From a virus: a DNA stretch of 20,798 bases. The position numbers and the translations under genes were made by a program. The DNA is taken from the IMG/VR virus record IMGVR_UViG_3300009156_000095, positions 1-20,798 of that record; one strand, given 5' to 3'. Every line of letters begins with the position of its first letter. Positions within the stretch are counted from its first letter, which is position 1. The notes under the pieces were generated by a model. The model did no database searches. It was not told where the DNA came from and was given only the letters and a program-made list of their open reading frames with translations. Positions 578 through 20,798 of the stretch are shown here, piece by piece.

Positions 578-1750
578 TTAGAGGGCTCCGGCGGCGTACC
601 TGGTGGCTAACGCCAGGGCCACCGAGCGGGCGACGAAGCCCTGCCTGGTCGAGGCGGGCAGCGCACCGCCGATCGAGCCGGTCGCCAGTTGAACGCCGTT
701 CTTCTTGGTCGTCCAGCTTGAGCCGCTGCACTCCAGGCGAAGCACATCGCCGGCTGCCACTGCGCCGGTCGAGGACAGGCTGGTCATGTTGCCGCCCTCG
801 CGGCGGTAGAGTTCGATGCCGGTGTTGATCGAGCGGATGCCGACATAGTTCTGGTTGTCGGTGACCCGGCAGCAGGCGAACGGCCCTGAGCTGGTCGGCA
901 GCGGCGACGGCAGGGTGATCTCGCACCAATGGTTCTGCGAGCCCATGTCAGGGCTGAGGTACATCGAGCCGGGCGAGGCGGTGGTGGTCGAGGCCAGCTT
1001 GCCCGAGCTGACGACGCCGTGGCCGCTGACGCCGCCCGCCATCATCGTCCAGCCGGTGACCGCCTCCAGGTTCTGGTTCGCCAGGCCGGAGAAGTCGGTG
1101 ATGAAGTCCGGAACGACCGGCGTATCGTCCCAGGCCGCCAGCACCCGGCGCCAGGCGGTGCCGTTCCAGATCGATAGCACCTCGGTGGTGGTGTTCCACC
1201 AGAGCTGGCCGACCAGCGGGCTGGCGGGCGCGCTGCCAGCGACGGTGGCGCCGCCGACGATCGTCGTCCAGGCGGTGGCGAAGTCAGTGCCGCTCGATTT
1301 GGCCAACACCTGGCCGGTGGTGCCGCCGACGGGAACGCCGGGGCCGGCCGGGCCGGTGCTGCCGGTTGCACCAGCTGGGCCCTGAATGCCCTGCGGTCCC
1401 TGGCTGCCGGTATCGCCCTTGATGCCCTGCGGGCCTTGCGCGCCTGGCGCGCCCTGCGGGCCCTGGATGCCCTGGCTGCCGGTATCGCCCTTGGGGCCTT
1501 GCGGCCCGACGGGGCCCTGGACCCCCTGCGGCCCCTGCGGGCCGTCAGCGCCGCGCGTCGAGCCGCCGTCGACCCATTGGGTGCCGTCCCAGGTCCAGCT
1601 GTGGCCGGTGTCGTTGGCCGTCCACATGTCGCCCTGCTGCGGATTGGTCGGCAGATCGGCATAGGTCGGCACCAGGCCAAGGAAGCGAATGCCAGGCCCC
1701 TGGGGCCCGGTGGGCCCCATGATATTCATCTCCTTCAGCCACTGGTCCAT
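578..1750 (-). CDS. Collagen-like tail fibre protein with LamG-like C-terminus
   Basis: This 390-residue protein has a modular fibre architecture. A short GPTGPQGPG segment is followed by a Trp-rich module at 40-59. A Gly-X-Y collagen-like stalk covers about 67-137 and contains KGDTGSQG twice. A second Trp-rich module lies at 181-200. The C-terminal domain (about 215-390) looks like a beta-sandwich of the LamG/concanavalin type, with N-Y-V-G-I-R and I-E-L-Y-R-R-E strands. Collagen-like stalks in phage fibres are known to form trimers, and the terminal domain is a likely receptor or carbohydrate binder (inference). The start is uncertain. ATG 1750 has AAGGG 8 nt upstream. ATG 1720 (residue 11) has a better AAGGAG at good spacing. 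The gene lies in the same frame as the preceding collagen-like gene, separated by TAG and CCC only. It is the last gene of the fibre block. Confidence 0.85.
1398..1492. repeat. 23-bp exact direct repeat in the collagen-like region
   Basis: The sequence at 1398-1420 recurs exactly at 1470-1492, an offset of 72 nt or 24 codons. It encodes the KGDTGSQG segments of the collagen stalk. A perfect in-frame repeat of this kind could let the stalk length change by recombination or slippage in steps of eight Gly-X-Y triplets. Confidence 0.85.
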
Positions 1751-1753
1751 GGG

Positions 1754-2374
1754 CTATGCCCTTAGCCAGGAATCGCCGTCGAACTTCCAGACATCGCCAT
1801 TATCGGTGTTGAGCCACATATCGCCCGCGACGAACTCGCCGATGACCGGCGGCGTGCCCGAGCCCGACATCCACATCGAGCCGCGCTGCCCGTCCTTGCC
1901 GGGCGCGCCCGTCGGCCCCGGTATGGTCGAGGCAGCACCTGGCGCACCTGCGGGGCCAGCCGGTCCCGCCGGCCCGCTGGGCAAGGTCGCCGAGAACAGC
2001 GGCCCCTGGTAAGCGTAGGCGCCGCCGCCGATCGCCACCGCGCCCTGCGCCACCATCGAGGTCGGCTGCTTGCTGCTGTTCCGAAAGTACAGCTCGATCG
2101 TGTAGCCCCTCGGATCGGAGAAGAAGGTGCCGGGCACGTCGAGGTGGGCTCGGCCGGAGATGGTGTCGACAATCGCCAGGTCGTAGGCGGAGACGTTGAT
2201 GTCGGAGCGCGGCCGGAGCACCAGCTGCGGATATTGGGTGTCGATGCCGGCATAGGGCGTGCCGTTGACGCCATTGCGGAACAGGAAGTCACCGCTGAAG
2301 GCGGCGCCGCGCGCCTGGCGCCAGCCGATCCTGGCCGGCTCGACCGGCGAGATGTCAATCACCTGGAGGGTCAT
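1754..2374 (-). CDS. Collagen-like fibre/adhesin protein with N-terminal beta domain
   Basis: This is a 206-residue protein. Residues 1-130 form a beta-rich domain of unknown family, with motifs such as Q-L-V-L-R-P-R-S-D-I and Y-T-I-E-L-Y-F-R-N. A collagen-like Gly-X-Y stretch spans about 134-165 (GPAGPAGPAGAPG, then GPTGAPGKDGQRG). A Trp-rich module ends the protein at 184-203. The start ATG overlaps the stop of the 61-codon gene by 4 nt (ATGA), suggesting coupled translation. The stop is an amber codon (TAG at 1756-1754), and the next collagen-like gene starts one codon later in the same frame. The two could therefore be a split fibre gene or a readthrough pair. A role as a fibre or fibre-linking protein is inferred from context and collagen repeats. 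Confidence 0.8.
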   Translation of the reverse strand: MTLQVIDISPVEPARIGWRQARGAAFSGDFLFRNGVNGTPYAGIDTQYPQLVLRPRSDINVSAYDLAIVDTISGRAHLDVPGTFFSDPRGYTIELYFRNSSKQPTSMVAQGAVAIGGGAYAYQGPLFSATLPSGPAGPAGPAGAPGAASTIPGPTGAPGKDGQRGSMWMSGSGTPPVIGEFVAGDMWLNTDNGDVWKFDGDSWLRA

Positions 2375-4748: not shown

Positions 4749-4970
4749 GTGGTACAATATGCGGATGACCAGCTCACCCCTGAACAGATCGAAACCGTTG
4801 ACCAGCAGCTTGTGGACATCTTTGCCCAAACGCAGGATGAGGTCGCGCAGAGCCTCGGCATCCAGCCCCAGGCCAATGGCAAATGGAGCAAAGCTGACGA
4901 AGATCGCATCTTCGCCGAGGTTACCCGTTTGCATCGCCAGACGCTCATCGAGCTGTACCAAGACTCCTGA
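4749..4970 (+). CDS. Coding-like ORF on the opposite strand, unknown function
   Basis: This reading fills most of a 271-nt gap in the minus-strand gene order. From a GTG at 4749 it gives 73 residues: acidic, Gln-rich and probably helical, with T-P-E-Q-I-E-T-V-D-Q-Q, then G-I-Q-P-Q-A-N-G-K-W and an amphipathic C-terminus ending L-I-E-L-Y-Q-D-S. All five Ile codons are ATC and all Arg codons are CGC or CGT, as expected for a GC-rich gene. The weak points are clear: the start is GTG, there is no Shine-Dalgarno, and no good promoter was seen. A competing minus-strand frame (4961 to 4692, TTG start, or ATG 4934) fits the operon spacing. It overlaps the 443-residue gene and stops 18 nt before the fibre gene, but its Leu/Val/Phe-rich product resembles an antisense shadow. 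Base-position statistics are symmetric for the two, so strand is unresolved. It could also be a remnant of a transferred gene. Confidence 0.38.
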   Translation: MVQYADDQLTPEQIETVDQQLVDIFAQTQDEVAQSLGIQPQANGKWSKADEDRIFAEVTRLHRQTLIELYQDS

Positions 4971-6276
4971 GCCAGTTCATGTAGTTGTCCACCCATTGCT
5001 GGTTGGCTTCCTGCACCGGCCGCGTCGTCTCGACCGTGCGCGCCGTGTTGGGGATTTTCTCACCGACCGGCCGGGTTGCAAGAAAGTCGGGAAACATCAC
5101 CGAGAACGGCACCTGGCCCATATTGCCGACATGCTCACCAGCAATGCCGGTCGAATAGGTGTCGTGGCCAGACGATGGGATGATGCGGCCCTCGGGATCG
5201 AACTTGCCGACTGACATGCCGCTGGTCAGCGTCGAGGCATGGTGCAGCTCGGGCTCGGTGATCGCCTTGCGCAGCGATGCCAGATCGGGGAAGCCCTGCT
5301 TCTGGAACTGACCGAGCGCCATCAGCTTGGCCAGCTCGGTGCGCGCCCCACCAGGTGCTGTTGCTAGCCATTGGTCGTCGGCGTTGCGGATCCCCGGCCA
5401 ATTCTTCACCTTCTCTGCCATCTTGGCATCGAAGGCAGTGATCGCCTCGGGAGAGAGATCAGCCTTCTGCGTCAGGTCGAGCAACGGCCTGGTCGTCATC
5501 CTGGCGAAGTCACCGCTCTCCGGCCCCATCGCGACATGCACGCCAAACACCGGCTTGCCGCCCTTGGCATGCTCTCGCACCTCGTCGCTGATCGAGGTGA
5601 TGCGGCCCTTCTCGGAGGCCCAGATCTGGCCGGGGTTCTCCTGCATGAAGCGGCCACCGCCACCGAGATGCTGCTCGCGCGGCAGCTGCACCCCATTGAC
5701 TGAGGTGAGGATCTCGCCGGCCTTGGTCCGATCGCCATAGAGCGGAAAGAGAATGCCACCCTGGAGATCCTCGGCGGTGATCGGCTTATCGGGCCGTAGA
5801 TTGCCGGTCGGCCGGCTCTCATGCGTCATGGTGCTGAAGGGCTGCTTCAGCTTCACGCCGCTGCCGGCAGGGTGAAACCATTCGGGATCCTTGGCCTTGG
5901 CCAACACCTGACGGCCGCCGCCCTCAACCAGCGCCTCGACCCCCTTGGCTGCCTCCTTGGCCGCGTTCTTCTCGACTCCGCCGCCGGGCATCATCCCGAG
6001 CGCCGCCAGGCCCATCCCCCACCAATCCTTGTTCTTGGCCGCCGTGCCGAGATCCTCGGCCGACAGCGCCTGGCCGACGACCGGCAGGTTCTCGGCCGGG
6101 GTCATCAGATCCTTGGCGAGTGTGCCCTGTTTCACACCCATCTGCGGGATGTCGGGATAGCTCTGCATCGAGGACGGCAGGTAGCTGGTGGCACCCGCGA
6201 TCAGTCCACTCAGCCGGTCACGCAGCGAGGTCGTCGGCTGGAAGCGGGGATCCGTCGAGGACTGGATCGTCGCCAT
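4945..6276 (-). CDS. Putative ejected virion protein with polyvalent-protein-like domain
   Basis: This 443-residue protein is the last of three probable ejection proteins before the fibres. Residues 1-125 are Gly/Ala-rich with G-M-G-L-A-A-L-G-M-M (about 87-96), possibly membrane-active. Residues about 168-390 form a distinct globular domain. It contains P-L-Y-G-D-R-T-K-A-G near 178-187, V-N-G-V-Q-L, a Gly-rich G-G-G-G-R-F, I-W-A-S-E, and then V-F-G-V-H-V-A-M-G with D-F-A-R-M (243-260) and W-P-G-I. From memory, this order resembles a domain found in large phage polyvalent (ejected, multidomain) proteins. I could not test that here. The C-terminus is a short helical tail. A cell-entry or early host-takeover role is inference. 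A weak AGAGG lies 10 nt before the ATG, which follows the previous stop closely. Confidence 0.7.
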   Translation of the reverse strand: MATIQSSTDPRFQPTTSLRDRLSGLIAGATSYLPSSMQSYPDIPQMGVKQGTLAKDLMTPAENLPVVGQALSAEDLGTAAKNKDWWGMGLAALGMMPGGGVEKNAAKEAAKGVEALVEGGGRQVLAKAKDPEWFHPAGSGVKLKQPFSTMTHESRPTGNLRPDKPITAEDLQGGILFPLYGDRTKAGEILTSVNGVQLPREQHLGGGGRFMQENPGQIWASEKGRITSISDEVREHAKGGKPVFGVHVAMGPESGDFARMTTRPLLDLTQKADLSPEAITAFDAKMAEKVKNWPGIRNADDQWLATAPGGARTELAKLMALGQFQKQGFPDLASLRKAITEPELHHASTLTSGMSVGKFDPEGRIIPSSGHDTYSTGIAGEHVGNMGQVPFSVMFPDFLATRPVGEKIPNTARTVETTRPVQEANQQWVDNYMNWLRSLGTAR

Positions 6277-6279
6277 CTG

Positions 6280-7224
6280 TCAGGGCCTCTTCGCCCCGCC
6301 GGCCATGCTCAGCCTGGCCAGCACCTCGCGGGCTTCCTGGGCGGCCTGCGGATTGACCAGCAGCCGGCCCCCGGCGTCCCTGGTCATATAGTTTTTGACC
6401 GCAGGTGCGAGGGTCTGGGCCCAGGTTGACGCTGTTGTCGCCACGGGTGGAAGCCCGATTGCGGCAAGCCCGGTATCCGCAGCCATCGTCGTAAGCTTTG
6501 GCGCGTTACCCAAAGACTCAACGGCATTGGCTACCCTGGAGGTCGGCGCGGGCGGCGCTGGAGCCGGCCGGAACACTTCTTGCAGCGTTTTCGGAGCTGG
6601 TGGCGGTGGGGCCGCCCTGGTGCCGCCGCTCCACCATTTCGCGAACGGCGCCGCGATCGCCCCACCGAGCCCGCCCAGGCCACCGCCCCAGGCGGCCCCC
6701 TCGGCGATATCCTCCCAGCTGCCGCCATGCCCATAGGCGTTGACGCCACCCTTGGCAGCGCCCTCGGTGCCATAGGCCAAGCCGCTCTTGAGCATCCCCG
6801 CCTCGGGAGCCAAGAATTTGCCGGCCACCGCTGGATTGGCCAGGCTGCTGCCGAATTCGACCGCACTAAAGGTGCCGGGGTTGACGGCATCGATGGCGGC
6901 CCTGTCGGCCTCACGCAGCTTGGTCTGCTTCTCGTTGGCCTTGTCCCAGCTCATGTTGCCGGAGAGCGTGTCGGCCAGAGCCGCGCCCTTGTCGGCCAGG
7001 CCGAAAGTCAGGCCGCTCACTCCGGCTCGCGCCAGCGCATGGAGGCGATTGCCGACCCCGCCCCAGTAGCCCGGCGCGCTGGTGTCGGGCAGCTGGAACA
7101 TCCCGCCATCGGCGGCGGGTTTGTTGGTGACGCCGGACGGCGCCGTCGGCGGGATCAGGTCATCGAAGCGCCCACCGCCGCCGCTGCCGCCCTTCTTGGG
7201 AATGAGATCGTCAAACCTACCCAT
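6280..7224 (-). CDS. Putative internal virion/ejection protein with FDDLIP motifs
   Basis: This 314-residue protein opens with G-R-F-D-D-L-I-P twice (residues 2-9 and 18-25), separated by a Gly/Ser/Lys-rich linker. F-D-D-L-I-P is a short motif I associate with ejection or internal proteins of podophages. Two stretches rich in Gly, Ala and aliphatic residues follow: about 64-85 (V-S-G-L-T-F-G-L-A-D) and about 174-195 (G-G-G-L-G-G-L-G-G-A-I). They could insert into membranes. A Pro/Ala-rich linker spans about 200-225. The C-terminus ends in a helical A-A-Q-E-A-R-E-V-L-A-R-L segment. The ATG is in a TGATG overlap with the preceding stop and lacks its own Shine-Dalgarno, so coupling is likely. 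The role in DNA delivery is inferred from motif and position. Confidence 0.7.
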   Translation of the reverse strand: MGRFDDLIPKKGGSGGGGRFDDLIPPTAPSGVTNKPAADGGMFQLPDTSAPGYWGGVGNRLHALARAGVSGLTFGLADKGAALADTLSGNMSWDKANEKQTKLREADRAAIDAVNPGTFSAVEFGSSLANPAVAGKFLAPEAGMLKSGLAYGTEGAAKGGVNAYGHGGSWEDIAEGAAWGGGLGGLGGAIAAPFAKWWSGGTRAAPPPPAPKTLQEVFRPAPAPPAPTSRVANAVESLGNAPKLTTMAADTGLAAIGLPPVATTASTWAQTLAPAVKNYMTRDAGGRLLVNPQAAQEAREVLARLSMAGGAKRP

Positions 7225-8621
7225 CAGAGTTTCGACGGATCGCCTCCCTGCTCTCGCAGTCGCTTCTCGACCGCCGCCCGGTCTGCCCCGCGCGCGAGAG
7301 CGTCACGCGCCTCTTGCAGAATGTCGCCGCCACCACCGCCGCCAGTGCTGCTGGTCTTGTCGGGATCCCAGTCGAGCACCGCGCGCGCGTTCGCCACCGG
7401 CCCGGCGTAGTTGCTGAGCGTGCCCCATTTGGCCCAATGCTCGGCCATCGCCTGCTTGGCGACGGCGATCTGTTTCACCTGCTCCATCAGCATCCCGGCG
7501 CGGCGGGCGTTCTCTGTCGGATCCAGCCTGTCGTTGAAGGCGCGGTTCATCAGCGCCTCGCCTTCCTGCTGGGTGAACTGCGAGCCGAGCACCTGGCGCA
7601 GCGTCGTCTGCACCGTCTCGCGGATCGCGTCCTGAGCGATCTGGCCATTCGGGTTGAGGTATGGCTTCAAGGCATCGGGGATCAGCCCGGCGGCCCCGGT
7701 GATCCCGGTATATTTCGACGGGTTGGCGTTGAGGAGATCCAGCGCCTTCTGCACCTGCTCGACGGCCTTGGCGGCAGCTCCGCCGCCCGCCTGGTTCCAG
7801 TCGAGGATCTCCTTGGCCGCCTGGGTGTCGTAGGCCGCCTGGCCGGGGGTGAACAGGTCGCCAGGCTTGGCCGGCGCGACATAGTTGGCCTTCTTGAGCG
7901 CGTCGTCGCGTTCCGCCTGGCTGATCCGGCCGGCCTGGAAGTCGGCCTCGATCCTGGCGGTGTCGGTCTGCGGCTTGGCCGCCTCGGTTTTTGCCGCCGT
8001 CGAGGCGGCCTCCTTGTCGGCCTCGACCTTGGCGATCGCTGCCAGGCGCTCGGCCTCCTGGCGATCCTCTTGGAGATTGGTCTGCTGGGCGCGCTGCGCC
8101 GCCGCGTCGGCGGCTTGCTGGGCCCGCGTTGCTTCGCCCTCGCCGTGCTGGAACGTCTGCCCAGCCTCCCGCTCGCTGGTCTGGAATTCGCGCTGCGCCG
8201 CCGCCTGCCGCTCCTGCCGTCGGCTCTCGGCCATGTCGTGAAGCATGGGGAGCACCTTCTCGGGCATGAGCGCGCCCATGACCTGCATCGCCTCGGGGCT
8301 GAACTCGCCGGTATCGGGATTGAACTGGGTCATCGCCTGGGACAGCGCCTGGCGGCCCTCGGCCAGCTGCTTGTCGGCGCGGCCCTGGCTGAGCCCCTGC
8401 ATCACCGACTGCGCCAGGTAGCCCACGCCCTGCATCGGGCTGGTCATCTGCGGCAGCTCGATCTGCTGGTTGGAGAGCTGCTTCTGGCGGGCGATCAGGG
8501 CATCGAGCGTCATGCCGCCGCCAGGTACGCTGCCAGGCGGTGAACCGCCGGGCGAGACGCCCATGCCGATAATGTTGGGACCAAGCCGGCTAGTGCCGGG
8601 AGCGGGCGGGACGCGGACCAT
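7224..8621 (-). CDS. Putative internal virion (ejection) protein, coiled-coil
   Basis: This 465-residue protein starts with a Pro/Gly-rich segment (1-36). A long Gln/Ala/Glu/Arg-rich helical region, likely coiled coil, covers about 125-240. A C-terminal domain (about 290-410) contains V-L-G-S-Q-F-T-Q-Q-E-G-E-A-L and N-D-R-L-D-P-T-E-N-A-R-R. I recognise this arrangement from internal/ejection proteins of podophages and related phages. A Gly run precedes a last helix, A-R-D-A-L-A-R-G-A-D with V-E-K-R-L-R-E-Q-G. It lies directly after the virion lysozyme in a TGATG overlap, with GGAGG about 12 nt upstream. A part in the DNA-ejection channel is likely but rests on family resemblance and gene order. 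Confidence 0.7.
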   Translation of the reverse strand: MVRVPPAPGTSRLGPNIIGMGVSPGGSPPGSVPGGGMTLDALIARQKQLSNQQIELPQMTSPMQGVGYLAQSVMQGLSQGRADKQLAEGRQALSQAMTQFNPDTGEFSPEAMQVMGALMPEKVLPMLHDMAESRRQERQAAAQREFQTSEREAGQTFQHGEGEATRAQQAADAAAQRAQQTNLQEDRQEAERLAAIAKVEADKEAASTAAKTEAAKPQTDTARIEADFQAGRISQAERDDALKKANYVAPAKPGDLFTPGQAAYDTQAAKEILDWNQAGGGAAAKAVEQVQKALDLLNANPSKYTGITGAAGLIPDALKPYLNPNGQIAQDAIRETVQTTLRQVLGSQFTQQEGEALMNRAFNDRLDPTENARRAGMLMEQVKQIAVAKQAMAEHWAKWGTLSNYAGPVANARAVLDWDPDKTSSTGGGGGGDILQEARDALARGADRAAVEKRLREQGGDPSKL

Positions 8622-9361
8622 CAGCCGAATAGCCTCCCTGAATTGAGCTGTGCCATGAGCTGGGTGAGCACCTGGCGGCGATCGGCGCCGAGCGGGGTCA
8701 CCGGGGCCACCGCCTCGGCATCGACGCGGGCCGCCTCGGGCGCCGGCCTCAGCTGATTGGTGCCGGCGAGCTGGGCGGTCGGAAACTTCAGCCCGCTGAG
8801 CGCGTCTCCGATCTCGTTGACCATGCTCTTGGGCTGGTTCTGCTTAGCCCAGAGCGCGGCCAGCTTCTGCCGGTTCTCCTCACTCCAGGGGTCGTTGGGA
8901 TTTGGAGCCGAGCCGCCGCCGGAGCCGCCGCCGGAGCTGCTGCCTGCAGCGGCGCCGCCATAGGATGCCGCGCGCTTGGCCGCATTGTCGGCGGAGGGAC
9001 GCTCCCAGTAGTTGAGAAAGTTGGTGCCCGCCTCACCCTGCGTCTTGGCCGCCAGCACCTTGTCCCAAGCGGCTTTCTCGCTGGTCGTGTTTTCGTGATG
9101 GAAGAAATCGAGCTGCACGTCGGGGTCGGAAACGTCCTTCCCCTGCTCGGCCGCGAACTGCTCCAGCGCCACCCGGCGGGGGCCGGTCCACTGCGCCAGG
9201 CCGTAGCCGCCCCGGCCGGCGATCGGCGCCCGCTCTTGGATCCCGGTGTCGAGGCCGCTCTCGTCGCGCCAGTTCATCACTACGCCCCGGGCGACATGCT
9301 CGGGGTAGCCGTAGCGTTGCACCATGGTGCTGACGAGCTGGTCCTCGCTGAGCCGGGGCAT
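8621..9361 (-). CDS. Virion-associated lysozyme-like protein (Phage_lysozyme2 type)
   Basis: The product is 246 residues. Residues about 8-95 match the phage tail lysozyme pattern: N-W-R-D-E-S-G-L-D-T-G, with Glu34 as likely catalytic acid, then G-R-G-G-Y-G-L-A-Q-W-T-G-P-R-R (49-63) and a Q-L-D-F-F-H-H-E helix. A Gly/Ser linker (about 135-156) leads to a C-terminal tail of about 90 residues. That tail begins D-P-W-S-E-E-N and ends V-L-T-Q-L-M-A-Q-L-N-S-G. It may dock the enzyme to the internal or tail complex. Such enzymes cleave peptidoglycan locally during DNA entry. GGAGGT precedes the ATG at good spacing. It sits among the ejection proteins, not with lysis genes, which favours an entry role over release. 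Domain assignment is by motif; the tail is unassigned. Confidence 0.82.
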   Translation of the reverse strand: MPRLSEDQLVSTMVQRYGYPEHVARGVVMNWRDESGLDTGIQERAPIAGRGGYGLAQWTGPRRVALEQFAAEQGKDVSDPDVQLDFFHHENTTSEKAAWDKVLAAKTQGEAGTNFLNYWERPSADNAAKRAASYGGAAAGSSSGGGSGGGSAPNPNDPWSEENRQKLAALWAKQNQPKSMVNEIGDALSGLKFPTAQLAGTNQLRPAPEAARVDAEAVAPVTPLGADRRQVLTQLMAQLNSGRLFG

Positions 9362-9850: not shown

Positions 9851-10741
9851 CTATGCCCGTGCCCAATTGCCGGCGGCCCCGCCGCCGACGGCGCCTGCCA
9901 GGCTGAACAGGCCCTGGTTGAAGGCGTTCGCGGAGGCGAGCTGGTTCTGGTAGTTGCTGGCCATGTAATTGCCAGGCGAAGCAGCCGAGATCCCCTGCCG
10001 GCTGAACGGCGAGAACGACGGCATGTTGACCTGGGAGCCACCCAACAGAGCCATGATCTCGTTGATCGGTTGATTCCTTAGAGCGAAGCTTTCCTGCGTC
10101 TGCGCCTGCCGGAGCTGGTTGTTGGCGGCGTTGCCGGCGAGATAGGCGTCGTAGTTGGACCTGGCTTCCTGGCCCGAGGCCAAATAGGCCTGCTGCTGGG
10201 CGTCGGTGCGGGCCCGCTGCTGGGCATCCTGAACGTCGGTCCAGCCCTGCGACCCCGGGCTCATGCCACGGGCGGCGAGCTGCGCCTCCTGGGCGGCGTT
10301 CGCCTTGTTCATGGCGTCGGTCTGCCGCCCCATCAGCGCCTTTTCGATCGCCGGCCGATCGGTCGCCTCGGAAAAGCCACGGGCGCTCTGCCAGGGCTGC
10401 CAGCCCTGGGTGTTGATCGACTGGTTGAGATAGTCGCCGATCTTGGCCGACTGCTGGGTGGCGGTGCGGCCGAGATTGTAGCGGGTCGAGGTATCCCAGC
10501 CGGCGATCTTCTGCTCATCCGGGGAGAGCGTCGTCGTCCGGGTGTAGCGCGGCACCGAGATCATCCGGCCGTCGGCGCCGGGCACCTGCTCCCAGCCGGC
10601 GACCTGATAGTTCACCGAGCCGTAGGGCGATTGCTCATTCGGGTTGTTGATGATCGCCGAGCTGCTGGCCGCCCCGACCTGGGCGTTCTGATCGGCCGCC
10701 GCCTGCTGATAGGGGTTAGGTGGCTTGGGGCTGGATGCCAT
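9851..10741 (-). CDS. Putative internal virion protein, Gln/Ala-rich, 296 residues
   Basis: It begins with P-K-P-P-N-P-Y-Q-Q-A-A-A-D-Q-N, a form I recognise from virion proteins that follow the tail-tube genes in many podophages. There it is often annotated as a hypothetical or as an internal protein. Features include N-E-Q-S-P-Y-G-S-V-N-Y (residues 35-45), a helical Gln/Ala-rich middle (about 140-220) with L-A-A-R-G-M-S-P-G-S, and a Gly/Ala-rich end (about 275-296, S-L-A-G-A-V-G-G-G-A) that could be a membrane-active tail. GGAGG lies upstream of the ATG, inside the last codons of the acetyltransferase gene, and the two genes overlap by 26 nt. Function is inferred only from order and composition. 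Confidence 0.7.
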   Translation of the reverse strand: MASSPKPPNPYQQAAADQNAQVGAASSSAIINNPNEQSPYGSVNYQVAGWEQVPGADGRMISVPRYTRTTTLSPDEQKIAGWDTSTRYNLGRTATQQSAKIGDYLNQSINTQGWQPWQSARGFSEATDRPAIEKALMGRQTDAMNKANAAQEAQLAARGMSPGSQGWTDVQDAQQRARTDAQQQAYLASGQEARSNYDAYLAGNAANNQLRQAQTQESFALRNQPINEIMALLGGSQVNMPSFSPFSRQGISAASPGNYMASNYQNQLASANAFNQGLFSLAGAVGGGAAGNWARA

Positions 10742-11222
10742 GGGAGCCTCCGAAATAGTCGGTCTGGCGGATGGTCCCGCCCGTGTAGCCAGGAAGGAAC
10801 CGGCAGTCCTCCGGCAGCATGCCCCACATCAGAACGTCGCGCGTGCCCTCGACCCCGCAGCGCAGGAAGCCCTCATAGACGAAGCCCATCCTCCGCACCT
10901 GTTCGAGAGCGCGGGCGTTGCCGGGCTCGACCAGGGCGGTGATCCGCCGGGCGCGGGTAAAGAGGGTGCGAAAGATCGTCTTGAGCAGCCGCCTGGTCAT
11001 GATCCGCTGATCGGCGATCGCGCAGGTGAAATGCCAGTCGAACCAGGTCTTGGGCTCGCAGGCGAGCACGCCCACCACCTGGTCGTCGCTCTCGCGCCAG
11101 GCGGTGATGCAGAACCATTCGCGCATGTCGAGGTGGCCGTAGGGGATCGCCGTCTCCTCTTCCAGAAACTGGCAGGCCTCGACGGTCAGCGGGGCGGCGA
11201 AGGAGAAACGATAGCGGCTCAT
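10716..11222 (-). CDS. GNAT-like N-acetyltransferase
   Basis: This 168-residue protein fits the GNAT fold (RimJ/RimL-like). A strand Q-V-V-G-V-L-A-C-E (48-56) is followed by a helix after R-I-M-T-R-R-L-L-K. Then come I-T-A-L-V-E-P-G-N-A-R-A-L (94-106) and the characteristic R-R-M-G-F-V-Y-E-G-F-L-R (110-121). The usual Gly-rich acetyl-CoA loop (R/Q-x-x-G-x-G/A) is degenerate here, with no Gly in Q-R-I-M-T-R-R. It may therefore bind CoA atypically or have a structural job. I chose ATG 11222 over the longer frame from 11342: it forms a 4-nt ATGA overlap with the nozzle gene stop, and the extra residues are Arg-rich shadow. A target cannot be deduced. Its place amid tail genes suggests modification of a virion or host surface component. 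Confidence 0.75.
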   Translation of the reverse strand: MSRYRFSFAAPLTVEACQFLEEETAIPYGHLDMREWFCITAWRESDDQVVGVLACEPKTWFDWHFTCAIADQRIMTRRLLKTIFRTLFTRARRITALVEPGNARALEQVRRMGFVYEGFLRCGVEGTRDVLMWGMLPEDCRFLPGYTGGTIRQTDYFGGSHGIQPQAT

Positions 11223-13060
11223 CCGACCACCGCCCCGATCTCGTAGACGACATCGATGCCGGCGAGCGCAAAGTGGCAGTCGTTGACGGTCACCTTGATG
11301 CGCGGGGCGCCGACCCCGCCGAGCCCCGACACCCCGTTCCAAAGCGTCATCGCCTTGGGGTTGGTCTGCCAGTAGTCCACGTCCCAGGTGGCGGTGTCCC
11401 AGGAGCCGCCCAGCCTGGCGATCGACACATCGGGCTGATTGAGCGGCGGCGAATCGTCATAGTCGACGCGGATGTCGACGTAGGGTTTGGCGATGCCGTC
11501 GGTGATGATGTAGGGCCGCACCATCTGGAACTTCTTCAGCGAAGAGGTGCCAAACGTCGACCAGGTGAGCATCACATCGGCGGTGATCGGCCGGCCGTCA
11601 TCGGAGTAGGCGTTCCGGCTCATCTCGTAGAGCGCGCCCGTGTCGGACGCGCAGTAGAGCTTGCGGCCGAGCCACTGCCAGGTGCGGGCCGGCACGTCGC
11701 TCCAGCTCGCCCAGATCGGATCCGGCATGAACCTGATCATCTGGCGGAACACGTTGGGCGCGCCGCTCGGAAAATTGCAGATTGCCCAACCGTGATTGTA
11801 GTCGAGGATCACCTCCCAGCCGGAGCCGCCGGAGCCGCGATCGGCGGTCAGCTCGGCGAACATGTCGGTGACGTTCTTGTCGGACACCCCGAGCTGCTCG
11901 GCCTCGGCCCTGAGCATGGTCGACATCGGCACCAGGCCGGTCGAGATGAAGGCGTAGAGATCGCCGCCGTAGTTGATCACCGAGCGCATCGACATCGGCG
12001 CGTCGAAGCGGAAGATGCCGGTCAGGGCGAAGTCAGTGTCGGGATCGGTGCCGCCATAGATTACGGCCTCGCCGTTGGAGCTGAAAATCACCAGCTGGTC
12101 TTCGGTGCCCGCGCCCCCATCGAGAGTCCACGTATAGATTGCACGGATCGAGCCACCTCGCCTAAAAAGTGCATTGAGCGGTAGCTGCTTGAGCTGCCCC
12201 GATTTCTGCTGCAGCGGCAGATAGAACAGCGCCAGATTGGTGTGGTCGGCGAACCACAGCCGGTTCATATGCGACAGCACCAGGTGGAAATTCTGCGGAT
12301 TGCAGTAGGTGGCGCCGGCCGGCGCCGTCAGCGTCTCCTTCACCAGGGAGCCGAGCGGGATCGCGTCGACACCGGAGGTCTGCGGGCCGGTCGCCGCCGA
12401 GGTGTTGACGCCGACCAGGGTGAAGGTGTTGACGGGGGTGTTGACCGACGAGATCTGATGGTTGCCGTTGGCGGCCGAATGCGTGGCGTCGGCGCCGACG
12501 ATCTTGACGTAGTCGCCATTGTGGAACTTGCCGATGTCGGCCGCCGCCACCGTCACCACCGCCGGGTTGGCGTTCGACAGGCTGGTGACCGTGACCGGCG
12601 CGCCATCGACTGCCGTGCCGCCGTTCCAGCTCCAGACCCCGTCGGCGCCGTTGACGGCGACCGTGTAGTCGTCGTCGCCGAGATTCGAGAACGAGGTCCA
12701 AGCCCAGAAATTGGCATTGAAGCCGGAGCGCAGCAGCGTAGCGTCCTGCTTGTAGAGCTTGCCCTCGGCCGCCAACAGCATGGCGTTGGGCGCGCCATAG
12801 AACGGCAGGATCGTCTCGATCGAGGCCTGGCTGGCGAGCTGCGAGATCTTGATCAGGCCGGGCCGGATGGTGATGCGGTCCTTCTCCACCGTCCAGTTGT
12901 CGAGGATCGAGGCGGTGAAGGCGTCGGCGGTAGCCAGCTTGGAGCTGAGCGACAGCCCCTTGACCGGGGCTTGCAAGTGCTTGGTCTGCGCCGCCAGCTT
13001 CTTCTTGGCCAGCGTCGGCACTGCCTTCGAAGCGTAGCGGGACGGCGCGACCCTGGTCAC
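11219..13060 (-). CDS. Tail nozzle / stabilisation-like protein (beta-propeller type)
   Basis: This 613-residue protein matches in size and pattern the tail-tube nozzle group (P22 gp10-like stabilisation protein, functionally like T7 gp12). A short basic N-terminal part (K-K-K-L-A-A-Q-T-K) leads to repeated beta segments, including N-R-L-W-F-A-D, L-V-I-F-S-S-N-G-E-A-V-I-Y-G-G-T-D and W-A-S-W-S-D-V. These look like propeller blades. The C-terminus (about 490-613) resembles a fibre-docking beta domain. The start codon is GTG in a GTGA overlap with the preceding adaptor stop. Known homologues close the distal end of the short tail and contact fibres and needle. The family call rests on sequence style, length and position, since no alignment was possible. 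Confidence 0.78.
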   Translation of the reverse strand: MTRVAPSRYASKAVPTLAKKKLAAQTKHLQAPVKGLSLSSKLATADAFTASILDNWTVEKDRITIRPGLIKISQLASQASIETILPFYGAPNAMLLAAEGKLYKQDATLLRSGFNANFWAWTSFSNLGDDDYTVAVNGADGVWSWNGGTAVDGAPVTVTSLSNANPAVVTVAAADIGKFHNGDYVKIVGADATHSAANGNHQISSVNTPVNTFTLVGVNTSAATGPQTSGVDAIPLGSLVKETLTAPAGATYCNPQNFHLVLSHMNRLWFADHTNLALFYLPLQQKSGQLKQLPLNALFRRGGSIRAIYTWTLDGGAGTEDQLVIFSSNGEAVIYGGTDPDTDFALTGIFRFDAPMSMRSVINYGGDLYAFISTGLVPMSTMLRAEAEQLGVSDKNVTDMFAELTADRGSGGSGWEVILDYNHGWAICNFPSGAPNVFRQMIRFMPDPIWASWSDVPARTWQWLGRKLYCASDTGALYEMSRNAYSDDGRPITADVMLTWSTFGTSSLKKFQMVRPYIITDGIAKPYVDIRVDYDDSPPLNQPDVSIARLGGSWDTATWDVDYWQTNPKAMTLWNGVSGLGGVGAPRIKVTVNDCHFALAGIDVVYEIGAVVG

Positions 13061-18846: not shown

Positions 18847-20798
18847 TTAGAACGGCGGCGGTCTTGTACCGTTGCTGCCTCCGCCTGGTGGCGGCCCTGG
18901 TGGGAGCCCACCGCCGGGCGGTGCAGGGCCAGGCGGTGGGCCCGCGCCAGCTCCATTCGCACCCTTCGGGCCAGGCGGAGAACCCACCCCTGGAGGAGGG
19001 GCACCTGGCGGCGGCGGCGGAGCCGGCGGCATCATCGCCTGCATGGCGATCTGCTGCTTCAGGATCTCTTGGAAGTCATTGATCATCTCCGTCACCCCCC
19101 GCGAATAGCGGATTGGGTGTAAAAACATTTTGAGCATTTCGAGCCCAAGCTGCATCACCATGGCCGGCGGCAGGATGCCGGTCATCAGCATCTGCTGGGT
19201 GCCCATCATCACCCCCTGGATCGCCTGCATGGTCTGGGCCATGCCCTCCTGCTCGGCCTGGAGGTCGGGCACGATGGTCGAATCCGTCTCGATGTCGATG
19301 GCGCAAGTTCTGAGAAAATCGGAGCGCAGCACCGCCTCGACCTCGGGCGGCACCTTCTCGCCGGTCATCAGCTCCAGGGTCGCGGCGTCGAAATTCTTGG
19401 CGATCAGCTCGGCCTTGAGCCGCAGCAGATCGCGGACGAAATTGCCGGCGGTCTGCTTGAAATCCTCCATGCGCGACATGCCCATGGAGCCCTTGATGCG
19501 CTGCGCCGTCGCCGTCTCCGAGGCCCGGGTGGCACCGCGCATGATGTCCGAAATCCCCATGATTTCGTAAATGCTTTGCTTGAGCTGCTCCTTGGCGATC
19601 AACAGCTTGTCGAGCGCCGACATCCACTGGTCGATCGGCACCAGCCAGATGTGATTGGCGAGCCCGCCATTGATCATGTCGACGCCGTCGACGGGAATCA
19701 TCTTGCCGTCGCCGGCCGTCAGGATGTCGGCGATCTCGTTCGAGGCCGAGTTATAGGCGCCCCGGATCTTGATCATCTTGGTGACGTGGGAGATGCGGGA
19801 GCTGACCTCGTCCAGGTCGCCGGCCAGCTTGGCATAGAGATCGTAATAGGGCCTGGGGATCCGGGTGTCGGTGGTGCGGATCGCCAGCATCGGCACCGGG
19901 ATCGGGTAGAAGCCATCGAGCTGGTAGCTGTCGGGGTCGACCCTGAGCACGACGCCGGAGGCCTCGCGGATAAACCAGATGATGGTCTTGGTGGTCCGGT
20001 CCCACAGCTCCCAGACCATCGCTTTTTTGATGTGGTCGCCCAAGTTCTTGGCTGATTTCAGCGCCGAGCCGCCGCCGACCGCGTCCTTGGCGGCGCTCTC
20101 CTCGGTCCACTTGAACAGCTCGCCGAGCCGGTTGGCTGATTTCAGCGCCTCGTACTGCTTGGAGCCGGCGAACTCTGTCTCCAGCCCCTCGCGGGTGAAC
20201 AGATGGCGAAAGCCGACCCAGTTCATATCGGCGGCGGCGCGCACCGGATCGACCAGCAGATCCTCCCAATAGACATACTCGTCGCCGACCGATTCCCAGA
20301 TCTTGATGTCCTCGGTCGGCGGCGGTGCGCCAGGCACCCCACCGCCAGGCAGCGGGGTCGTGCCATCGCCGGCCAGCACCGGCTGCTGCTTGAATTCCGG
20401 CGACCAGCGGACGCGGCAGACGCCGCGCCCCGGCAGCAGCGTGTCCTTGATCGCCAGCTTGACCGATTCGTCCGACTGCTCGTCATCGAGCACGATCTCG
20501 AGCGTCTTCTGCATCACCGAGGCGGCGGTATCGATGACCGCCTGCGGCGGCCGGGTGTCGGCCGGCTGCGGCATCGTCGGCATCGGCGGCGCAGGCGCGC
20601 CCGGCAGCGCGCCGAAAGGCGGCGGCGGGCCCGGCGGGGGCGGCGGCGCGCCCAGGCCGGCAGCGAGCGCGTCGGGCGAAACGCCCGCGCTTAGATCGGC
20701 TGCCCCGCCAGGCGGCATGGGAGGAGGTATGACATCCAGCGGAGCGCCCGCGTCTGGGGGAACGACCCCAGGCGGCGGCGGTTGAGGAGGGCCGGGCG
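18847..20798 (-). CDS. Portal protein (5' end beyond the window)
   Basis: The frame is open to the right edge. The ATG at 20718 is internal: upstream codons continue in frame as a Pro-rich stretch (V-V-P-P-D-A-G-A-P-L-D), and no Shine-Dalgarno stands before it. At least 649 residues are visible. Portal hallmarks include D-T-L-L-P-G-R-G-V-C-R-V-R-W near the N-terminal third, Y-V-Y-W-E-D-L-L-V-D-P and N-W-V-G-F-R-H-L-F. The later part has R-A-S-E-T-A-T-A-Q-R-I-K-G, a pattern recurring in podovirus portals. The C-terminal 60 residues are Pro/Gly-rich, as is the N-terminus, so both ends are probably flexible. The portal forms the dodecameric DNA channel at the capsid vertex. Size suggests the P22-like rather than the smaller T7-like class. 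Confidence 0.88.
   Translation of the reverse strand, partial: PGPPQPPPPGVVPPDAGAPLDVIPPPMPPGGAADLSAGVSPDALAAGLGAPPPPPGPPPPFGALPGAPAPPMPTMPQPADTRPPQAVIDTAASVMQKTLEIVLDDEQSDESVKLAIKDTLLPGRGVCRVRWSPEFKQQPVLAGDGTTPLPGGGVPGAPPPTEDIKIWESVGDEYVYWEDLLVDPVRAAADMNWVGFRHLFTREGLETEFAGSKQYEALKSANRLGELFKWTEESAAKDAVGGGSALKSAKNLGDHIKKAMVWELWDRTTKTIIWFIREASGVVLRVDPDSYQLDGFYPIPVPMLAIRTTDTRIPRPYYDLYAKLAGDLDEVSSRISHVTKMIKIRGAYNSASNEIADILTAGDGKMIPVDGVDMINGGLANHIWLVPIDQWMSALDKLLIAKEQLKQSIYEIMGISDIMRGATRASETATAQRIKGSMGMSRMEDFKQTAGNFVRDLLRLKAELIAKNFDAATLELMTGEKVPPEVEAVLRSDFLRTCAIDIETDSTIVPDLQAEQEGMAQTMQAIQGVMMGTQQMLMTGILPPAMVMQLGLEMLKMFLHPIRYSRGVTEMINDFQEILKQQIAMQAMMPPAPPPPPGAPPPGVGSPPGPKGANGAGAGPPPGPAPPGGGLPPGPPPGGGSNGTRPPPF

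Follow-up and report, generated by a model that had tools for sequence, protein, structure and literature searches.

The minus-strand gene at positions 4945–6276 of the window (the whole stretch of DNA analysed here, a complete virus record of 20,798 bases) encodes a 443-residue protein composed of two modules. A short N-terminal carrier precedes a C-terminal domain that lacks a family model matching the window protein and that recurs in phage late regions, both within large proteins and in solo form. Tentatively, and at close to an even call, we read the protein as a nucleic-acid-binding effector that is ejected and exchangeable. As proposed in the first-pass annotation, it may represent an undescribed injected effector.

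The gene is an open reading frame of 443 codons that starts with ATG 3 bases past the stop of the preceding gene, and the plus-strand frame is interrupted by stops. The motifs listed in the first-pass annotation are indeed present in this frame, starting at residues 181 (GDRTKAG), 193 (VNGVQL), 205 (GGGGRF), 246 (VHVAMG), 256 (DFARM), and 293 (WPGI). Searches of Pfam, PHROGs, NCBIfam, and PADLOC assigned no family to the protein, and residues 1–125 matched no family of Pfam or PHROGs. The late block runs on the minus strand in the following order: a 623-residue ORF (18847–20718) that we read as the portal, the major head protein gene (phrog_9953, E 5.2e-73), the gene at 11219–13060, a GNAT-like gene, a virion structural protein gene, the tail lysozyme gene, two genes without a family, the gene at 4945–6276, and the tail-fibre gene (Table 1). 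The ejection-protein genes of short-tailed phages are placed by reference to the T7 gene order. By this analogy, the gene occupies the kind of site at which such phages encode ejection proteins. The phages similar in the 11219–13060 protein include those of Sulfitobacter, Rhizobium, Bradyrhizobium, Myxococcus, and others, so the host of the window is not settled. Two related podophages, ppBjS10J-1 and pCB2047-A, were checked for the same slot, and four block proteins of ppBjS10J-1 yielded no polyvalent family.

Table 1. Positions of the genes, modules, and conserved residues discussed in the text.
Feature	Positions	Strand	Basis
Gene under study, 443 aa	4945..6276	-	ORF call; relatives by tblastn and pattern scan
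Adjoining block gene, 314 aa, without family	6280..7224	-	ORF call; Pfam/PHROGs scan
Adjoining block gene, 465 aa, with relatives in L004 and L008	7224..8621	-	ORF call; protein comparison
Phage_lysozyme2 (tail lysozyme) gene	8621..9361	-	PF18013, E 8e-26
Virion structural protein gene	9851..10741	-	phrog_6121, E 2.6e-40
Late-block protein	11219..13060	-	phrog_5107, E 3.5e-73
Tail-fibre type gene, after the gene under study; N-terminus with relatives in L004 and L008	3741..4673	-	Pfam/PHROGs; comparison
Acidic convergent ORF, 73 aa, GTG start, possible partner	4749..4970	+	ORF; comparison
N-terminal carrier module, residues 1–112, 75% identity to proteins with ART-PolyVal in place of the domain	5941..6276	-	Sequence comparison
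C-terminal payload domain, residues 126–443, occurring solo and within large polyvalent-type proteins; PUA/YTH-like fold predicted	4948..5901	-	Homology; model
D182-R183, 33/33 rows; predicted strand end, after model residues 52–58	5728..5733	-	Model; alignment
W219 (IWAS), 32/33 rows; in the strand at model residues 94–98	5620..5622	-	hhalign; alignment
Predicted helical insert, residues 257–339, including conserved W293-P-G	5260..5508	-	Model; 33-row alignment
H371-D-T-Y374 loop, between later strands; H 33/33, Y 32/33 rows	5155..5166	-	Model; alignment

The resemblance to polyvalent proteins, at first noted from the motifs alone, reflects real homology. The motifs are not a product of chance, since tblastn with the whole protein identified two annotated phages, MW202675 (residues 138–399, E 2e-21) and C72C1 (residues 160–439, E 5e-20), and a pattern scan with three aligned sequences detected 27 viral loci in IMG/VR. 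The ORF is complete in 21 of these loci, and 20 of the 21 encode 764–1783 residues. A Pfam scan covering 18 of the 27 loci revealed a polyvalent-type domain in eight, namely InPase in L013, L018, L020, and L025, ART-PolyVal in L009 and L026, and PBECR5 in L027 and, below the Pfam cut-off, in L022; the remaining ten showed no family at E 0.01. The MW202675 protein, annotated as 'type I restriction enzyme', likewise carries InPase (E 2.4e-47), and the gene two places upstream encodes ART-PolyVal (E 1.2e-17) together with peptidase M15. The defining feature of polyvalent proteins is the presence of at least two disparate domains, which were found together in relatives of the window protein. The window protein itself has a single recognisable one and by this measure is not polyvalent, but rather a solo carrier of a polyvalent-type domain.

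The first-pass annotation described the domain as usually embedded in giant proteins. Copies in large proteins do exist, but solo versions of 425–484 residues are common (L003, L035, L040–L042, and the CRP-902 type). Among them are those of C72C1 (468 residues), L040 (484), L041 and L042 (425 each), and gp72 of the isolated phage CRP-902 (436) with its IMG/VR relatives. Solo polyvalent domains near structural genes have also been described by Iyer et al. (2017, PMC5512222), who list 40 domains without a function. The domain had no match in the plasmid collection; a pattern scan of genome contigs (A1) gave 54 pattern matches and zero relatives. The PDB, searched by sequence, contained no relevant match, and no Pfam LPD model matched any of 19 family members at E 10.

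Exchange of the modules is evident from two kinds of relatives. The carrier recurs in 490-residue proteins encoded by four near-identical contigs (L004–L007) from four metagenome sets, where it is followed by ART-PolyVal (PF18760, E 5.5e-7 for the whole protein). The C-terminal part of this protein type alone scores 31.3 bits against a cut-off of 31.2, and its H and Y motifs were located by eye. The remaining block genes of the window and L004 are less alike, with identities of 33–59%. Conversely, a 774-residue protein of L008 contains the domain (53% identity over residues 125–443) behind an unrelated N-terminus. L008 belongs near the window, with three other clearly matching proteins out of 23 compared, and its 774-residue ORF is closely followed by a gene homologous to the window's tail-fibre gene, as in the window. 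From these arrangements, the slot holds the carrier with the domain, the carrier with ART, or another N-terminus with the domain. The ART-type swap on one carrier thereby marks a payload slot where more effectors may be sought.

The domain likely adopts a PUA-like fold, as judged from an AlphaFold2 model computed from a 19-row alignment (A2; mean pLDDT 80.8, pTM 0.79). A model of an independent branch (A5, 11 rows) reached a pLDDT of 34.9 and was discarded. With the first model as the query, 18 predicted viral proteins of 419–1489 residues were retrieved from BFVD at E ≤ 0.001 (query TM up to 0.85), one of them labelled 'Structural protein'. Foldseek returned nothing from the PDB at E ≤ 0.001; its top hit was a YTH domain (E 0.3, probability 0.57). 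When the Foldseek candidates were aligned with VIA-align, the 28 top rows were all YTH entries (Z 7.9–5.1), which are not independent because the PDB holds many of them. The best row, 4u8t_C, superimposed 138 residues, i.e., most of the YTH domain, on the predicted model with Z 7.9, an rmsd of 3.4, and 9% identity. Two THYN1 entries (4.8 and 4.4) and Rpa0253 (3.9) followed, so that YTH and then EVE domains are the best matches; the other rows had Z ≤ 3.9 and 41–58 aligned residues, or 82–90 in three cases. A VIA Z below 8 and a Foldseek E of 0.3 can reflect a mere common arrangement. Sequence profiles for YTH (PF04146) and EVE (PF01878) matched none of the 19 members and nothing in the window, where the control of the YTH search was also without a match, and the Pfam and PDB profile searches gave no YTH match at the sequence level. 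An hhalign comparison of 33 family rows with four YTH sequences selected IWASEKGRITSISDEVREHAKGGKPVFGVHVA, the IWAS/IWCS segment, with P 0.14, and 7 of 200 column-shuffled YTH profiles reached an equal score. In this alignment, W219 lies opposite the first cage Trp of YTH domains.

The YTH and EVE domains are PUA-superfamily readers of modified bases, which Bell et al. (PMC7641849) tied to restriction and virus–host conflict in prokaryotes; YTH-like domains also occur in CoCoNuT systems (PMC11090510). The payload domain would share with them its predicted fold and strand order, a Trp that is conserved in the second core strand, and conserved residues that end the first strand. It differs by the lack of a significant sequence match, by its large helical insert, and by the second cage Trp, which is not evident and in whose stead H371/Y374 may serve. 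The words YTH, PUA, EVE, and ASCH are absent from the main text of PMC5512222, and no report of a YTH-like domain in polyvalent or ejected phage proteins was found in the open-access literature searched.

Residue conservation was counted over 33 aligned rows, equivalent to 12.4 effective clusters (protein residues are those of the model plus 123). In addition to the residues in Table 1, W293 is kept in 31 of the 33 rows, R312 and R336 have a weighted frequency of 1.0, and L003 has Phe in place of W219. YTHDC1 holds the base with W377, W428, and L439, and N363, N367, and S378 contribute hydrogen bonds; N363 and N364 sit at the end of strand 1 (PMC6112328). Judging from residue order and secondary structure, D182-R183, W219, and H371/Y374 would match the base-holding places of YTH domains. 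DNA methylases were considered as a clue to the ligand; they are annotated in CRP-902 and C72C1, and none in MW202675 (positions 1–55101 of 61219). The C72C1 enzyme is a C5-cytosine methylase (PF00145, E 6.5e-34), and the best match of the CRP-902 enzyme, EcoRI_methylase, is below the cut-off (E 0.017). Thus, the methylases of these three phages give m6A in particular no support.

Facing the gene, a small acidic ORF (pI 4.1) sits between it and the tail-fibre gene. In L008, a 68-residue relative is encoded at the same place (52.5% identity, E 1.8e-16). Two further acidic families occupy this position next to other solo copies, one in L040 (74 residues) and L041/L042 (66 residues), with 47% identity (E about 1e-13), and one comprising CRP-902 gp71 and its relatives (77 residues). 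All three families have pI values of 4.1–4.5 and net charges of -7 to -9, and they are dissimilar and could not be united. In all seven pairs tested, dN < dS (dS saturated in two), and gp71 is the sole plus-strand gene among gp32–gp79 of CRP-902. CRP-902-type loci that are complete at the 3′ end and extend at least 240 bases further number 22; the small ORF is present in 11 of them and absent in 11. None was seen to follow the C72C1 gene or the embedded forms examined. The window's family had no match in L004–L007 and zero relatives in the viral-contig scan and in phages; among phages, the CRP-902 ORF matches only CRP-902. The product of ORF 4749–4970 could be a neutraliser, a chaperone, or an unrelated gene product. 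The facing ORFs offer a testable partner, and CRP-902 has both genes (gp72 and gp71).

According to the effector reading, residues 1 to about 112 would be a carrier specific to the lineage and would direct the protein to the virion or the ejection machinery, and the C-terminal 318 residues would be a payload drawn from the repertoire of polyvalent proteins and open to exchange. The protein would probably be packaged in the virion and then ejected. In the newly infected cell, the payload, for which a PUA-superfamily (YTH/EVE-like) fold interrupted by a helical insert is predicted, would most likely bind nucleic acid. D182-R183, W219, and the H371/Y374 loop would line a putative pocket for a base, which may be modified. 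As infection starts, host or phage nucleic acid may be marked, masked, or disabled in this way, and the acidic convergent ORF product may hold the payload inactive within the producing cell. If the domain reads or alters bases, a nucleic-acid-recognising effector would be delivered with the genome, which bears on how incoming DNA fares against restriction and other defences. A more elaborate version of the effector reading, which we regard as doubtful, is that an injected PUA/YTH-like base-recognising payload, new among polyvalent domains, together with an acidic convergent neutraliser gained at least three times, constitutes an effector–immunity pair aimed at (modified) nucleic acid.

The effector reading is supported by the homology of the domain to one found alongside InPase, ART-PolyVal, and PBECR5 in large phage proteins, by the carrier bearing ART-PolyVal in four contigs and the domain another N-terminus in L008, and by the position of the gene in the late block beside the tail-lysozyme gene. 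The ranking of YTH and then EVE domains as best matches of the model, the landing of hhalign on IWAS/IWCS, the strong conservation of D182, R183, W219, H371, and Y374, and the acidic convergent ORFs adjoining solo copies in three settings argue in the same direction. It is weakened by the absence of a YTH sequence match, the low Foldseek, VIA, and hhalign scores, and the pLDDT of 34.9 of the second model, as well as by the Phe at W219 in L003, methylases that do not point to m6A, and the small ORF missing from half of the CRP-902-type loci and after the C72C1 gene. A search of the literature for virion proteomics of a relative found none.

Alternatively, the domain might be an enzyme acting on a nucleoside, nucleotide, or base by hydrolysis or another alteration, much as the ASCH-fold protein YqfB acts on N4-acetylcytidine. 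This is unlikely but deserves appreciable weight: the strictly kept D182, R183, R312, R336, and H371 look catalytic, enzymes are frequent among polyvalent domains (PMC5512222), and the amidohydrolase YqfB has a PUA-like ASCH fold (PMC6972931). However, no enzyme fold ranks above the YTH and EVE rows in the structural matches, and Pfam contains no enzyme family for the domain. It is rather improbable that the protein serves virion structure or maturation, its domain being used for assembly or packing and inactive in the host. The late-block position and the BFVD match labelled 'Structural protein' would fit such a role; nevertheless, the carrier also occurs with a domain of the ADP-ribosyltransferase type in place of the payload, and the payload domain shares ORFs with InPase and PBECR5 elsewhere, which is unlike a fixed structural part. 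Finally, the carrier–domain joint would be an assembly artefact, and the gene not naturally modular, only with very low probability. The exact 40-base joint occurs in no other IMG/VR contig, yet the frame is open across it, the carrier has another payload in four contigs, and L008, assigned to this lineage through three other genes, has both the domain and the small ORF before the tail-fibre gene.

Three known systems were compared with the window protein, in addition to the YTH and EVE domains. With the polyvalent proteins (PMC5512222), it shares a domain homologous to one in InPase, ART-PolyVal, and PBECR5 proteins, a late, virion-gene neighbourhood, and the solo form described there; it differs in having a single recognisable domain for which Pfam has no model. 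The MuF polymorphic toxins described in temperate phages by Jamet et al. (2017, PMC5576092) offer a parallel in their conserved, virion-linked N-terminus, exchangeable C-terminus, and adjacent small ORF. However, the window protein has no MuF domain (no Pfam or PHROGs match), its gene is far from the portal gene, and its small ORF is convergent, whereas that of the MuF toxins lies downstream on the same strand. The ejection proteins of the T7 gp14–gp16 type, which exchange functional domains (PMC8954989), resemble the window block in that a peptidoglycan-degrading gene precedes the tail fibre, but the window protein matches no PHROGs family and its payload is of the polyvalent type.

The lytic enzyme of the block has been exchanged too, as L004:3313–4506 encodes a VanY peptidase (PF02557, E 1.9e-12) where the window has its tail lysozyme. 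Directly after the carrier–ART gene of L004, a plus-strand ORF of 207 residues (L004:9463–10086) shows a weak, below-cut-off match to a NUMOD-like endonuclease (PF22083, E 1.8e-4), and a homing-type endonuclease at this place might help payload exchange. The N-terminus of the 774-residue L008 protein (L008:4630–6000) contains STILHEGFGHGVQ and also matches phrog_13543, a function-unknown family of 1879 positions. A zincin was considered in L008, but its motif HEGFGH is HExxxH, one residue longer than HExxH and non-canonical, and no metallopeptidase is claimed. The public label of UOF80306.1 (L002:6876–9572), 'type I restriction enzyme', fits neither InPase nor the domain and is probably wrong. 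In the window, the GNAT-like gene (10716–11342, minus strand) matches phrog_4470 (E 1.1e-11) and, weakly, the internal virion protein family phrog_308 (E 0.15), and a GNAT-like gene is also present in the late block of several related podophages. Two ORFs of the tail-fibre region (578–2374, minus strand) contain collagen-like GPQG/GPAG repeats.
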